Below, piece by piece: positions 14,348-59,631 of a stretch of DNA of 64,000 nucleotides; the first letter of the stretch is position 1, and the number at the start of each line of letters is the position of its first letter. The DNA is from Arthrobacter sp. PM3 (GTDB lineage Bacteria > Actinomycetota > Actinomycetes > Actinomycetales > Micrococcaceae). The stretch lies in the NCBI RefSeq assembly GCF_003352915.1, contig NZ_CP022314.1, positions 4,132,057-4,196,056 of the forward strand, in the 5' to 3' direction. The position numbers were made by a program, and so were the translations under genes. The notes beneath the pieces were generated by a model. That model was not told the origin of the DNA. It made no database searches and saw only the letters and a program-made list of their open reading frames with translations.

Positions 14348-14356
14348 TGTGGATAA
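14348..14356 (-). promoter_or_regulatory. TTATCCACA motif upstream of tadA
   Basis: Perfect TTATCCACA in the direction of tadA, 99 bases before the GTG start. Twelve bases (ATGTGGATAACC on the plus strand, 14347–14358) are identical to the site before the FHA–FtsK gene at 44776–44787. See also 58726 and 59623. Confidence 0.55.
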
Positions 14357-14536
14357 CCTCCGGCCCCGGGGCATAACACCTTTCTCATCGGTCACAGCAG
14401 GCGCACTGGCCTCACGGAATTCAGCGGCTGCCGGACTGTCCGCCCGGCCGGCCGGGCTGCGCTTTTGAACCGGGCGCCGCGTGGCCCTACGATCGACGGG
14501 ACGCGTCTTCCCCTTCTGAAACGGTGCAGTGAACCC

Positions 14537-16165
14537 ATGAATCTTCCCTCGCGCGAAGCGCCCGACGCTCGCCCGACGAAGAGCCCGACGAAGATCTCCG
14601 CCCCCGTCCTGCGCTTCGGCGTGATCTTCCTGGTCCTGTCGCTGTTCAGCACACTGTGGAGCCTGGCCTCGCCCCTGATGTCGGTACCTGACGAACCGGC
14701 CCACACCATCAAGGCCGCCGCCGTGGCGCACGGGCAGTTCCTGGGCACCTCCGGCCAGACCCAGGGCGAAGAGCTGCAGGTAGTGGTGCCCAAATACATC
14801 GCCGAGACCAAGTCCCTGACCTGCTTTGCCTTCAAGGTCAGCGTCACCGCGGACTGCTCCCCCGGACTGAACGCCGCGGACATCGAGCCGGTGACGGCGG
14901 GCACGTCCGCCGGCAACTACAACCCGCTGTACTACCTTGTGGCGGGCCTGCCTTCCCGGGTCCTCAGCGGCGAACCGGCCATCTACGCCATGCGGATCCT
15001 CAGCGGCCTGCTCTGCTCCCTGTTCCTGGCCGCCGCACTGTTCGCCACAACGCAGTCCGCCCACCGGCGCTGGCCGGTGGTGGCCGCGGGGATCGCCGCC
15101 ACCCCCATGGTCCTCTACCTCTGCGGGTCAATTAACCCCAACGCCTTGGAGATCGTCACGACGTCCGCGGTGTTCGTCAACCTGTGCCTGGTCCTGGAAA
15201 ACGCGCGGGACCTGTCCCGGGTCCGGTTCAACATTGTTGTTGTGGGAATTTCGGCCGCGGTCCTGGCCAACACCCGCGCCCTGTCCCTGCTGTGGCTTGC
15301 CCTGGCGGTCCTCGCAGCCCTCCTCATGGTCCCGGCCCGGGATATCCTGCTCCTGGCGAAGGACAAGCTGGTCCTCGCCATGACGGGCCTGATGGTGCTC
15401 GCGGCAGCCGGCGGCCTCCTGTGGCTCCGGAACGCCAACACCCTGGCCAGCCTGCTGGGCACACCGGGCACCGTAACCCCCGAGCAGGCCTTCGGCACCA
15501 TGCTGGAGCGGACCTTCGACATCGCCGCCTCGTACGTTTCCCAGCTGGGATGGCTGGACACCAACGGCCCCACCGCCGTCTTTTACTGGTGGGCGTGCCT
15601 CACCGGCGCACTTATGGTCAGCGCCCTGTCTGTAGGGCAGTGGCGGCCGCGGCTGGGGTTCATCGTCCTGGCCGTCGCCGCCCTCATCATCCCACCGGTC
15701 CTCCAGGCCCAGGTCGTCACCGACCTCGGCTACATCTGGCAGGGCAGGTACCTTCTGCCCGTCATTGTGCCGATGCTTCTGGCCGCCGGACTGGCCCTGC
15801 GGTCCCAGACGTTCCCGGTAACCGCCTTCGCGAAGCGGGTCGCGGCCTGGGCCGCCGGGTTCACCGTGGCGGCCCACACAGCCGTGTTTGCGAACGCCCT
15901 GCGCCGCTATGGCGTCGGAATATCCACCGAAGCCAACTGGGGCAGCATGTTCGGCGCGGTGAAGTGGGAGCCGCCGCTGGGCTGGCTCCCGTTGACGCTG
16001 GCGTACCTGGCGGTGGCCACTCTGGCGTGTGCGCTCCTGCACCGGCACCTGTTCAGTGACACGCTCGGTGACGTGCACACTGACACGCGCCGTGGCGCGC
16101 TGAACGGAGCGGATTCCCCGGCCCCGGCACAGCCGCGCAGTGTGAGTTCGCCCGCGCTGGACTAG
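14537..16165 (+). CDS. DUF2142 multi-pass membrane protein
   Basis: 542 residues. DUF2142 proteins are polytopic membrane proteins found in surface polysaccharide loci and thought to be related to GT-C glycosyltransferases. Their exact reaction is not established. Visible: a first helix (about 27–48), the conserved VPDEPAHTIKAAAVAHGQF block directly after it, a large outer loop with YNPLYYLVAGLPS, then many helices through residue ~510. The C-terminus is a disordered cytoplasmic-looking tail. The start is the ATG at 14537; the frame is open 24 codons upstream. It is about 45% similar by eye to the protein at 17895–19547, a paralogue on the other side of gtrA and the PstS-like gene. It diverges from tadA. 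Confidence 0.85.
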   Translation: MNLPSREAPDARPTKSPTKISAPVLRFGVIFLVLSLFSTLWSLASPLMSVPDEPAHTIKAAAVAHGQFLGTSGQTQGEELQVVVPKYIAETKSLTCFAFKVSVTADCSPGLNAADIEPVTAGTSAGNYNPLYYLVAGLPSRVLSGEPAIYAMRILSGLLCSLFLAAALFATTQSAHRRWPVVAAGIAATPMVLYLCGSINPNALEIVTTSAVFVNLCLVLENARDLSRVRFNIVVVGISAAVLANTRALSLLWLALAVLAALLMVPARDILLLAKDKLVLAMTGLMVLAAAGGLLWLRNANTLASLLGTPGTVTPEQAFGTMLERTFDIAASYVSQLGWLDTNGPTAVFYWWACLTGALMVSALSVGQWRPRLGFIVLAVAALIIPPVLQAQVVTDLGYIWQGRYLLPVIVPMLLAAGLALRSQTFPVTAFAKRVAAWAAGFTVAAHTAVFANALRRYGVGISTEANWGSMFGAVKWEPPLGWLPLTLAYLAVATLACALLHRHLFSDTLGDVHTDTRRGALNGADSPAPAQPRSVSSPALD

Positions 16166-16248
16166 AATTGCCGGATGTCCCCGCGATTCACAACGCCCGG
16201 ACGCGTCAACGACGGTAGGCGGTATGTTCTGACAATGGCGATGGTCCA

Positions 16249-16725
16249 GTGAGCCTGGCTCGGCGTTTGGCGACCTCTCTGCGCGGCAGCTACCTGGCCA
16301 GGTTCCTCCTGGTGGGAGGGGCCTCCTTCGCGATCGACCTCGGGCTGCTCGCGCTCCTCCACGACGCGGCCCACGTGGACCTGTGGATTGCCACCCCGAT
16401 CGCGTTCCTCAGCAGCCTGGTCTTCAACTTCTTCCTCCAGCGGCGTTTCACGTTCCGCTCGGAGGCCCGGGCACCTGTCAGTTTCCTCAAGTACGGCACC
16501 CTGGTGGTGTTCAATGTCATCGCCACCGACGTGATCGTCAATCTCATCGCCGGCTCCGGCCAGTCCTACGCCCTCGGCAAGGTCATCGCGACCATCGCCA
16601 CCACCGTGTGGAACTTCCTGCTCTACAAACACTGGATCTTCAGGCCGGCCCCGGCGGAGGACGGCGACGGCGTTGACCTGGATGCCTCCGCGACCGCCGC
16701 CGGCGCGTCCCGCCGCGGGCACTAG
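16249..16725 (+). CDS. GtrA-family membrane protein
   Basis: 158 residues from a GTG. Four helices: near 16–36 (LARFLLVGGASFAIDLGLLA), 45–62 (ATPIAFLSSLVFNFFLQRRF), 80–98 and 108–128. The RFLLVGGxxFxxDLG entry and the NFFLQRRFTF motif are typical of GtrA. GtrA-like proteins act with GT2 enzymes on lipid-linked sugars (proposed flippase or accessory role). It sits between two DUF2142 genes, which fits glycan transfer outside the membrane. An ATG at 16235 is out of frame. Confidence 0.85.
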   Translation: MSLARRLATSLRGSYLARFLLVGGASFAIDLGLLALLHDAAHVDLWIATPIAFLSSLVFNFFLQRRFTFRSEARAPVSFLKYGTLVVFNVIATDVIVNLIAGSGQSYALGKVIATIATTVWNFLLYKHWIFRPAPAEDGDGVDLDASATAAGASRRGH

Positions 16726-16830
16726 CTGGGCCTTGGCTGGTGCTTCCCTGATAACCCCTCGACACCAAGGGACCGGCTAGGGTAATAAGGAACGGTTTCG
16801 GAGGAATTCCGGAACAGGAAGGGATTTTCT

Positions 16831-58734: not shown

Positions 58735-58771
58735 CGGCTTCAGCCGGCACCAACGGTGGCAAAATGAACAC

Positions 58772-58993
58772 ATGCCCCGATTCCTGACCCTCGCAGACGT
58801 AGCCGAACAGCTCCAGATCAACTCCCCGGCTGCCTACGCACTCGTTCGCAGCGGCGAGCTCAAGGCGATTCAAGTGGGCGGCCGCGGCCAGTGGCGGGTC
58901 GAGGAGAAGATGCTCGAGGAGTACATCCAGCAACGCTACGCCGAGGCCAGCCGCATGATCGAAGAGGCCAAGTCGAAGGCGGCCGGGAGCTGA
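58772..58993 (+). CDS. Small excisionase/BldC-like helix-turn-helix protein
   Basis: 73 residues. MPRFLTLADVAEQLQINSPA, then AYALVRSGELKAIQVGGRGQWRV, is a MerR-type winged HTH as in excisionases and BldC; the last 25 residues are helical (EEYIQQRYAEASRMIEEAKS). Such proteins bind direct repeats as head-to-tail oligomers. Not in a phage context here, so a chromosomal regulator is likely. It is divergent from cpaB-like and about 700 bases from a set of 10-bp phased repeats at 59682–59715. Start: ATG at 58772; no strong RBS. Confidence 0.85.
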   Translation: MPRFLTLADVAEQLQINSPAAYALVRSGELKAIQVGGRGQWRVEEKMLEEYIQQRYAEASRMIEEAKSKAAGS

Positions 58994-59005
58994 CCCGAGG
59001 CCCGG

Positions 59006-59572
59006 CTAGCCTGCCGGGCTAGCCGACCTGATGGCAGCCAGGGCGCCGAAGGGAATTGTCACCGTCGGCCGTCCGGCGGCCGGACGCCGGCTGTCGTCGT
59101 CACGGGCCACGGCCAGGTCGAGGAAGTCCCGGCCGACCGTTTCGATGACGCCGCGCTGCCCAGTGTCGTCCGGGCGGCGCGCGAGGACGACTGTCACGCG
59201 GGCCCGGTTCCGGGCCAGCCCGCGGAGGGCGCTGCCCAGGCCCAGCCGCTGACGTACTCTGGACGGTTCCGGGACGGCCAGCCGCGAAAGCCCTGCATAC
59301 TGCACGGCAGCGGCATAGGGAATGAGCACCTGGTGCGCCGGCTCATCGACCACCAGCGCCTCGCTGCCTACGTGGCTCAGCACGCCTTCGATTGCGGCTC
59401 CCGCGGCCAGGTGGACACGGATGCTCCGCCCCAAGGAGCCGCGGAGCCGGTCCGCAAGCTCCACGCCCGCCGAATCCACCAACGCGCGCTCCGCTATCTC
59501 GGCCTCAAGATCGAGCTGATGGCGCGCGGCCAGCTGTGCCTCCATGTCTTCGAACAGGGCATCCCAGCGCAT
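59006..59572 (-). CDS. Conserved actinobacterial protein of unknown function
   Basis: 188 residues from the ATG at 59572 (MRWDALFEDMEAQLAA); the frame is open for another 36 codons with unlikely composition. N-terminal acidic helix (DALFEDMEAQLAARHQLDLE, then AEIAERALVDSA), then a β-rich domain with RGSLGRSIRVHLAAGAAIEG and HVGSEALVVDEPAHQVLIPY. I recall such proteins in many actinobacteria next to secA but no function is known. The C-terminus ends near AIRSASPAG. Divergent from the LysM gene. Confidence 0.75.
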   Translation of the reverse strand: MRWDALFEDMEAQLAARHQLDLEAEIAERALVDSAGVELADRLRGSLGRSIRVHLAAGAAIEGVLSHVGSEALVVDEPAHQVLIPYAAAVQYAGLSRLAVPEPSRVRQRLGLGSALRGLARNRARVTVVLARRPDDTGQRGVIETVGRDFLDLAVARDDDSRRPAAGRPTVTIPFGALAAIRSASPAG

Positions 59573-59622
59573 GGCGCCAGCGTAGGCGGACCGCCCGCAC
59601 CGGTCAATCAGCGGGCGCCCGA

Positions 59623-59631
59623 CTATCCACA
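59623..59631 (+). promoter_or_regulatory. CTATCCACA motif (one mismatch) upstream of the LysM gene
   Basis: CTATCCACA in the direction of the LysM gene, 98 bases before its ATG, one base different from TTATCCACA at tadA, FHA–FtsK and cpaB, with similar distance and orientation. Confidence 0.45.

Follow-up and report, generated by a model that had tools for sequence, protein, structure and literature searches.

Why should a nonamer identical to a DnaA box recur upstream of pilus genes and of an FtsK-type ATPase gene? The question is raised by a stretch of 64,000 nt (the window) from Arthrobacter sp. PM3 (GCF_003352915.1, NZ_CP022314.1, positions 4,132,057-4,196,056 of the forward strand). Exact copies of TTATCCACA occur three times in the window, each oriented toward its own gene: tadA, FHA-FtsK and cpaB. 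By chance, a mean of 0.03 copies is expected, and none of 100 dinucleotide shuffles contained three. The original prediction had placed the boxes 96-108 bases before the start codons, which is right within one base: the gap between box and start codon is 107 bases for tadA (GTG 14240), 95 for FHA-FtsK (ATG 44882) and 107 for cpaB (ATG 58618). The relevant features are as follows:

13026..14240, minus strand: tadA, T2SSE-family pilus ATPase, first gene of tad-1 (PF00437, E 1.6e-42)
14302..14307, minus strand: predicted -10 of tadA, TAGGTT, 40 nt past the box
14325..14330, minus strand: predicted -35 of tadA, TTGTCC, 17 nt past the box, similar in orthologues
14348..14356, minus strand: box TTATCCACA, tadA (tad-1) promoter
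44778..44786, plus strand: box TTATCCACA, FHA-FtsK promoter
44826..44831, plus strand: predicted -10 of FHA-FtsK, TACCGT, 39 nt past the box
44882..49036, plus strand: FHA-FtsK/EssC-like ATPase with FHA and FtsK_SpoIIIE domains, homologue of Micrococcus luteus Mlut_07490
56649..57977, minus strand: cpaE/tadZ-like ATPase, downstream of cpaB (weak ParA/Ssd-type matches, below cut-off)
57974..58618, minus strand: cpaB/rcpC-like gene, homologue of M. luteus Mlut_14650 (35% identity over 206 aa)
58672..58677, minus strand: predicted -10 of cpaB, AACAAT, about one helical turn farther from the box than in the other promoters
58726..58734, minus strand: box TTATCCACA, cpaB promoter, between cpaB and the HTH_17 gene
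58772..58993, plus strand: HTH_17 (excisionase/BldC-like) protein, 73 aa, homologue of M. luteus Mlut_14660 (PF12728, E 1.1e-12)

The FHA-FtsK protein shares 44% identity over 232 aa with Mlut_07490. Its scores lie below the EssC and EccC cut-offs (TIGR03928, 234.5 bits vs 778.4; TIGR03924, 200.9 vs 509.15), and by sequence it is EssC-like only. No Pfam match was found for the cpaB/rcpC-like product. The HTH_17 protein is 53% identical to Mlut_14660, and its gene, divergent from cpaB, starts 37 bp from the cpaB box.

A fourth site, CTATCCACA at 59623, carries one mismatch and lies 97 bases before the ATG (59729) of a LysM-like gene. The original prediction roughly estimated 0.1 chance occurrences of such a perfect 9-mer in the window, and joined pilus, FHA-FtsK and LysM genes in one regulon. 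Sites with up to one mismatch number 7 in the window, compared with 2.94 expected, a count of 7 being obtained in 2 of 100 shuffles; the 59623 site, as one of these 7, is therefore unremarkable by itself. All 28 cpaB loci have the LysM-like gene in the corresponding position, and NTDTCCACA precedes it in none of 27 relatives. Because its site is mismatched and lacks conservation, the LysM gene was dropped from the set. The excess over chance thus stands for the three exact sites only, and the proposed regulon keeps both tad halves and the EssC-like FHA-FtsK gene.

In the whole genome, 26 exact TTATCCACA sites are found, compared with 5 of the reversed pattern. Eight of the 26 (L006 and L008-L014) are located around dnaB, dnaA and dnaN, at 1.370-1.454 Mb (genes assigned by Pfam). 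Proximity to oriC was considered as the cause of DnaA-type boxes in the window and rejected, as dnaA and dnaN are located at about 1.435 Mb and the window at 4.13-4.20 Mb.

Examination of same-genus relatives bore out the idea that the sites are kept upstream of the same genes. TTDTCCACA was found before tadA in 29 of 30 loci, before FHA-FtsK in 24 of 27 and before cpaB in 28 of 28. Upstream of comEA, NTDTCCACA was present in all 17 loci whose start was found by the search expression, and in 19 when all 20 stretches were considered; the region upstream of ssd/tad-2 carried the box in 23 of 29. One thousand permuted motifs gave means of 0.03-0.10 for tadA, cpaB, FHA-FtsK and comEA, and of 0.06-0.10 when only the first three genes are considered. 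The best permuted motifs were mostly shifted overlaps of the box; an exception, TTTAACCCD, occurs in 8 of 30 tadA regions and represents another conserved promoter sequence. A control with neighbour genes, too small to carry weight, showed the box at 0 of 27 and 0 of 26 starts.

The location of the box within the promoter is also conserved. Using -10 search expressions picked for each gene after viewing the sequences, the distance from the box to the predicted -10 was 38-40 nt in 30 of 30 tadA promoters and in 23 of the 24 box-bearing FHA-FtsK promoters, and 47-50 nt in 27 of 28 cpaB promoters. In all 19 boxed comEA loci, a long reading frame begins 52-75 nt past the start of the box, and in 18 of them an ATG lies at 60-62 nt. 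After the 9-mer, an extended flank (TAG, TAC or TGG) is conserved at comEA, FtsK and ssd boxes. A view of TTATCC itself as a -35 element was abandoned once the 39-nt spacing became apparent.

The same layout is found before comEA-comEC, ssd/tad-2, yraN-comM-dprA, comF, rpsF-ssb, an ssb paralog, recA, a second RcpC/CpaB gene, and WXG100 and T7SS-signal-like genes. The presence of transformation genes among the box carriers had been missed in the first reading of the window. A promoter model trained only on tadA, FHA-FtsK and comEA promoters was used to scan 13 genomes, and matched the T7SS-signal-like operon in 13, rpsF-ssb in 12, the second RcpC gene in 11 and WXG100 in 10, with lower bounds of at least 5 for recA, at least 3 for yraN-comM and at least 2 for comF. 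E-values in the PM3 genome are modest for comF (0.0025) and yraN-comM (8.7e-4). Of 109 model-match loci, 16 had no homologue of the queries behind the box and were left unassigned, some of them being described by their best ORF. Certain assigned box-bearing genes have no known link to transformation (toxin-antitoxin, AbiEi-like, DUFs). When retrieved stretches were checked, 19 of 20 contained the box, and the exception (L240) was not a model match.

The box extends beyond the genus. Among 80 tadA loci of named genomes, 67 have the TTDTCCACA form and 5 the NTDTCCACA form; the figures are 16 and 2 for 19 other Micrococcaceae genera, and 11 and 2 for 22 tadA loci of other families, scanned on either strand and leaving out L367 and L370 (one partial, one a second weak match). 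Upstream of comEA in other genera, a clear NTDTCCACA was seen in 6 of 20 regions, M. luteus being within the 20. In M. luteus (G321), TTGTCCACA is found at both sides of the FtsK/tadA intergenic region and TTTTCCACA before cpaB, and the distance from box to -10 is 39 nt at tadA and cpaB. The comEA upstream region of M. luteus has no such box; its best sequence, TCATCCCCA, has two mismatches by eye.

In M. luteus, the homologues of tad-1, FtsK and cpaB are important for transformation: an FtsK G327E change lowers transformation at least 1000-fold, and a cpaB knockout 10^4-fold (PMC8467076). The coordinates of that paper match G321 only with a 91-base shift, according to our own reading. A re-reading of the cpaB and HTH mutations as lying in other elements was discarded: start codons and residues S27, S46 and R64 agree after the shift. 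Work on M. luteus transformation describes the same machinery as found here, namely tad clusters, comEA-comEC, CpaB, FtsK/SpoIIIE and HTH_17, with no shared promoter motif reported in the accessible parts of the three papers (PMC4322843, PMC8467076, PMC12849477). No match to the motif as a cis-element appeared in the literature searched, in agreement with the original prediction, which had called the regulon undescribed.

Since the same layout is found at com genes and the M. luteus homologues matter for transformation, the box is most likely a cis-element of natural transformation. On sequence grounds, TTDTCCACA, often followed by TAG, TAC or TGG, very probably serves in Micrococcaceae as the operator for a regulon of natural transformation (competence). 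The conservation, spacing and orientation of the sites and the nature of their target genes suggest a transcriptional role, with a layout that would favour activation. The 9-12 bp box, its centre lying near -56 relative to the transcription start, would be bound by a protein as one oriented unit; this protein would control RNA polymerase at a promoter 38-40 bp downstream, or one helical turn farther in cpaB. Many target genes look leaderless, with an ATG roughly 60 nt from where the box begins. The putative targets would provide a DNA-uptake pilus (tad-1, tad-2, CpaB/CpaE), an uptake channel (ComEA-ComEC, ComF), functions for processing and recombining DNA (YraN-ComM-DprA, SSB, an SSB paralog, RecA), and a T7SS-like set (EssC-like FHA-FtsK, WXG100, a T7SS-signal-like protein).

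Competence regulons with a shared cis-element include those of the ComK box in Bacillus, the CIN/Com box of SigX in streptococci, and CRE-S of Sxy-CRP. As in those systems, one element joins pilus, ComEA-ComEC, ComF, DprA, SSB and RecA genes; however, the box is different here, and Tad pili and T7SS-like genes are included. The rpsF-ssb and recA members have a parallel in competent B. subtilis, where the SsbA and RecA proteins rise (logFC 4.14 and 4.17), as does the rpsF 5'UTR transcript (27.9) (PMC7317962). Partial outside support for joint induction comes from Rhodoluna lacicola, in which tad, comEC and dprA rise jointly in the dark; comEA is an exception, and co-expression of this type is absent in Aurantimicrobium (PMC8591293).

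Which protein reads the box? The HTH_17/BldC-like protein encoded beside cpaB is, from its sequence and location, the most likely first candidate, and direct binding of the box by this protein has a chance somewhat short of even. Of 149 genomes from the order, 119 have a match at E<=1e-8, and in 12 of 26 loci from outside the genus an exact TTDTCCACA lies no more than 350 bp upstream. The protein also tracks tad-1: TadA (E<=1e-110) was detected in 17 of 18 chosen genomes with HTH_17 and in 4 of 20 listed without it (p 3e-6, uncorrected for kinship). Presence and absence did not discriminate decisively between HTH_17 and DnaA: of these four HTH-lacking genomes, one is fragmented (G091) and one is 62% complete (G115); the other two have genus mates with HTH matches near the E-value limit.

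The AlphaFold2 model (73 aa, mean pLDDT 91) fits a MerR-like winged-HTH fold without coiled-coil or effector domain. Seven of the top nine Foldseek matches in PDB were BldC chains (TM-score by target 0.75-0.87) and Xis was also among the best, but the E-values are weak (0.009-0.04, none <=0.001); phmmer against PDB sequences returned nothing at E<=1. Streptomyces BldC shares with HTH_17 a small winged-HTH fold without a dimerisation domain, although here the gene lies beside cpaB, in a competence setting. Each BldC protomer reads a directional 9-bp site, AATTXXXX(C) (PMC5859096), a form that the box resembles. BldC, however, binds repeats of sites, and most promoters here have one box; in cpaB promoters, T-rich stretches are added after the box.

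Genetic data from M. luteus are consistent with a role of HTH_17. In nearly all com up-mutants the homologue or its vicinity was altered, and R64W sufficed to restore the phenotype; on the other hand, 13-M89, one of the single mutations, did not alter the com promoter, and the authors state that binding to the comEA/EC promoter needs verification (PMC8467076). That the HTH_17 mutants are up-mutants suggests repression, while a box near -56 suggests activation, the opposite sign.

A second possibility, somewhat more doubtful, is that another transcription factor reads the box, for instance a two-component response regulator like M. luteus Mlut_14110. The response-regulator mutation 8-R34 lowers transformation at least 1000-fold, but 8-R34 by itself did not directly repress the comEA/EC promoter (PMC8467076).

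The possibility that DnaA itself reads the box appears unlikely; on this view, transformation genes would be activated or held down through single DnaA boxes, coupling DNA uptake to the state of replication. The DnaA-box consensus is TTDTNCACA. The 9-mer TTATCCACA is a DnaA box, with the same freedom at position 3 (A, G or T) as boxes of the oriC region; the same 9-mer surrounds dnaA, dnaN and dnaB in the PM3 genome; and in M. luteus both the tad-1 boxes and most boxes near chromosome position 1 are TTGTCCACA. Because of this identity, some sites may serve replication control. Unlike DnaA boxes, the sites described here are single, oriented and phased to the -10, and bear the TAG/TAC/TGG flank at comEA, FtsK and ssd. 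The consensus fits the tadA, FtsK, cpaB and ssd sites, but only 1 of 17 comEA sites. Loss of T1 at comEA (18 of 19) is, however, weaker evidence against DnaA, as T1 is also missing in 8 of 27 oriC-region sites. A sharper difference is found at position 10: T is present there at all 66 sites of FtsK, comEA and ssd, and at 2 of 27 oriC-region sites of PM3 and M. luteus (G being dominant, 18 of 27), bearing in mind that these sequences are related and the trials are not independent. The tadA and cpaB sites provide no argument against DnaA because their flanks lack the T10 signature.

Finally, an origin by chance, or as common promoter sequence that no shared regulator reads, applies to the LysM-gene site but is highly improbable as a general explanation, already contradicted at three of four sites by 24-29 orthologues per gene with the box (vs 0.03-0.10 for permuted motifs), by fixed spacing and by the recovery of unlinked transformation genes.

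A 2026 paper describes both the M. luteus competence regulon and the components that regulate it as currently unknown (PMC12849477). With a promoter element now defined and about a dozen target operons in view, it becomes possible to name the regulon, to pull down its regulator and to search genomes for competent species. The element also raises the question of why T7SS-like ATPase and WXG100 genes share a signal with DNA-uptake genes. A tentative speculation, based on the sequence evidence above, is that Actinomycetales possess a competence regulon of their own, read at a DnaA-box-like 9-mer by a small BldC/Xis-like protein instead of ComK, SigX or Sxy, and co-regulating a Tad pilus and a T7SS-like set, in which DNA uptake might include or need T7SS-like export. 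More broadly, the box provides a handle on what may switch on natural gene uptake in Arthrobacter-like bacteria, a large group.

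Three exact copies of a 9-mer, the box (TTDTCCACA, or NTDTCCACA when position 1 is left free), lie in the window where they had been described, each oriented toward its gene (tadA, FHA-FtsK and cpaB), and the chance expectation is 0.03. The site that the original prediction assigned to a LysM gene is present at its place; it has one mismatch, however, and this class is not rare (7 window sites with at most one mismatch, 2.94 expected). A fourth TTDTCCACA, intragenic, was taken as a chance occurrence:

44450-44458, minus strand, TTTTCCACA within the UDP-galactopyranose mutase gene (43452-44681)

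The whole genome of strain PM3 (4.35 Mb, one contig) holds 26 exact sites, compared with 5 for the reversed pattern. Eight of the 26 cluster around dnaB, dnaA and dnaN, and two are intragenic according to a rough gene caller.

Each window gene was checked in same-genus genomes, drawn evenly. Conservation upstream of the same genes was borne out for three of them. All 30 tadA loci compared (61 genomes searched) carry a variant of the box (TTATCCACA in 21, TTTTCCACA in 4, TTGTCCACA in 4 and ATATCCACA in 1) at −114 to −119 relative to the aligned start, the cpaB box is kept in 28/28 loci, and the FHA-FtsK box in 24/27 orthologues (absent in L117, L127 and L131; L142 and L143 were left out as a different paralogue); the compared genomes are kin, and these counts are not independent trials. 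No cpaB match was found in G027, a 68% complete genome. Permuted motifs (1000 permutations) gave mean counts of 0.03–0.10 per gene set, and the top-scoring ones were mostly shifted overlaps of the box itself. The LysM gene, in contrast, is no box carrier: it stands at the same place in all 28 loci, yet the site is found in 0/27 relatives. One LysM stretch, L107, has ATTTCCACA at another spot.

The box also precedes comEA. The comEC gene was detected in 28/29 same-genus genomes, and NTDTCCACA was found upstream of comEA in 19 of the 20 genomes whose stretch was examined (L153 lacks it). Behind the box, a long frame starts 52–75 nt after the box start in all 19 stretches, with an ATG at 60–62 nt in 18/19 and a ComEA-type helix-hairpin-helix signature in 18/19 frames. 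In the subset whose start was caught by a sequence pattern, the box is present in 17/17 and T at position 1 in only 1, so comEA retains a box one base away from the best 9-mer. Position 1 differs from T in 18/19 comEA sites (L145–L164), and is nearly always T at tadA, cpaB, FtsK and ssd.

The distance from box end to −10 element is 38–40 nt in 30/30 tadA, 23/24 FHA-FtsK and 16/17 comEA promoters, and 47–50 nt, about one helical turn longer, in 27/28 cpaB promoters; all gene starts and −10 hexamers here are predicted, and the −10 expressions were defined gene by gene after looking at the sequences. Constant phase and orientation would fit a factor that contacts RNA polymerase near −56. Several genes have their start codon some 60 nt downstream of the point where the box begins, a layout that would imply leaderless mRNAs.

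On a wider scale, 80 loci from named genomes, the top-ranking 80 among 559 relatives of the Micrococcus luteus-type TadA, showed TTD boxes upstream of tadA in 67 cases, NTD in 5 and none in 8, and 6/6 Micrococcus loci in this sample carry the box. Single genomes from 19 further Micrococcaceae genera have TTD at tadA in 16 cases and NTD in 2; a clear NTDTCCACA box at comEA was found in only 6/20 other genera. Of 22 tadA loci scanned in further families of the order, 11 have TTDTCCACA and 2 more NTD (within 300 nt, TTD on either strand).

In M. luteus, TTGTCCACA faces both directions in the FtsK/tadA intergenic region, TTTTCCACA lies upstream of cpaB, and comEA has a degenerate match only. Counted by eye, the −10 stands 39 nt from the box at tadA (TATCTT) and cpaB (TACCCT), and is less clear at FtsK. 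At L316 (G321:1575103, same genome) TTGTCCACA is followed about 37 nt on by TAGCGTG, upstream of a transglycosylase-LysM gene (Pfam) that resembles the resuscitation-promoting factor Rpf. PMC8467076 reports that FtsK G327E cuts M. luteus transformation by a factor of at least 1000 and that knocking out cpaB cuts it 10^4-fold.

A sequence-only promoter model made from 40 promoters (20 FHA-FtsK, 13 comEA, 7 tadA) was scanned over 13 genomes of the genus, its E-values being only rough. Among the matches listed, 109 loci (30 + 19 + 60) were examined; L240, which is not a model match, was left out. Matches in the PM3 genome included:

L229, yraN-comM-dprA
L231, comF (31.3 bits, under the NCBIfam cut-off of 233.55)
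L226, rpsF-ssb
L227, WXG100 gene
L228, T7SS-signal-like protein and its operon (slightly under the Pfam cut-off, 26 vs 27)
L225, second RcpC/CpaB (RcpC2)
L230, DUF2461 gene
L232, M23-peptidase gene

Two more sites of this genome share the box-to-start layout, ssd/tad-2 (L003) and DUF4192 (L022); tested directly, the ssd/tad-2 box was found in 23/29. Within the 109 loci, where per-genome counts are lower bounds, the T7SS-signal-like operon lies behind the box in 13/13 genomes, rpsF in at least 12, RcpC2 in at least 11, WXG100 in at least 10 and comEA in at least 9; recA, M23 and a Phd-type antitoxin follow it in at least 5 each, yraN-comM and DUF2461 in at least 3, and comF and DUF4192 in at least 2. 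Sixteen loci have no gene assignment. The labels RecA, SSB paralogue, Phd, PIN and RecQ-like come from Pfam on one locus each.

An SSB paralogue behind the box in at least 3 genomes (L505, L528, L531) is divergent (36–37% to the housekeeping SSB), and is reminiscent of SsbB, the competence-specific SSB of Bacillus. Phd-type antitoxin genes (L492, L507, L508, L512; at least 5 genomes by homology) include one with a PIN-domain gene downstream (L507); the two would form a toxin-antitoxin pair that may be linked to competence. The box precedes a lipB-type gene (LplA-B_cat) in both PM3 (L021, with a divergent kinase-like gene identified by eye) and M. luteus (L315). AbiEi-like genes, some apparently leaderless, are found behind it in L005 (PM3), L292 (M. 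luteus), L491, L509 and L523; the label relies on weak sub-cut-off Pfam matches in L005 and L509 and was given by eye in the others.

Which protein might bind the box? Our leading, tentative candidate is HTH_17, a small protein whose gene adjoins the cpaB box. It has a match in 119/149 genomes of the order and goes with tad-1, the tadA cluster: TadA at E ≤ 1e-110 was found in 17/18 genomes with HTH_17 (chosen from the 119, about one per family) and in 4/20 without it (listed of 30), with a Fisher p of 3e-6 that ignores kinship. Its predicted structure resembles BldC and Xis, though every match has E > 0.001, and BldC protomers recognise directional 9-bp sites (PMC5859096, in part). In M. luteus, according to PMC8467076, almost all com up-mutants were altered at or close to cpaB or the HTH_17 gene, the HTH_17 change R64W by itself restored the up phenotype while 13-M89 by itself did not, the gene was refractory to deletion, and its product is a putative binder of the com promoter. 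That some other factor occupies the box is a lesser but serious possibility. DnaA is the least likely of the three: it would account for the 9-mer and for the freedom at position 3, but position 10, directly following the 9-mer, is T in 66/66 FtsK, comEA and ssd sites versus 2/27 oriC-region sites (PM3 and M. luteus; G in 18), in a search that preset positions 2 and 4–9. T at position 1 is absent in 8/27 oriC-region sites, and the T10 signature was not seen at the tadA and cpaB sites.

The regulon had been proposed as undescribed, and we found no account of it or of the motif in the portions seen of the open-licence literature, including PMC8467076, PMC12849477, PMC4322843 and PMC6667448. Excerpts of PMC8591293 report that tad genes, comEC and dprA, comEA excepted, go up in Rhodoluna lacicola in darkness, and that Aurantimicrobium photophilum has no such dark-response pattern.

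The T7SS-signal-like operons, the WXG100 genes and the window's own EssC-like FHA-FtsK gene have the box in common with DNA-uptake genes (examples of T7SS-signal-like or WXG100 loci: L227, L228, L200, L202, L205, L208, L217, L219, L480, L487, L500, L501, L517, L518, L525, L533, L538). PMC12849477, in the part consulted, calls the M. luteus competence regulon currently unknown. Read from sequence, the box would be bound and have a transcriptional role, and it most likely marks a natural-transformation, or competence, regulon.
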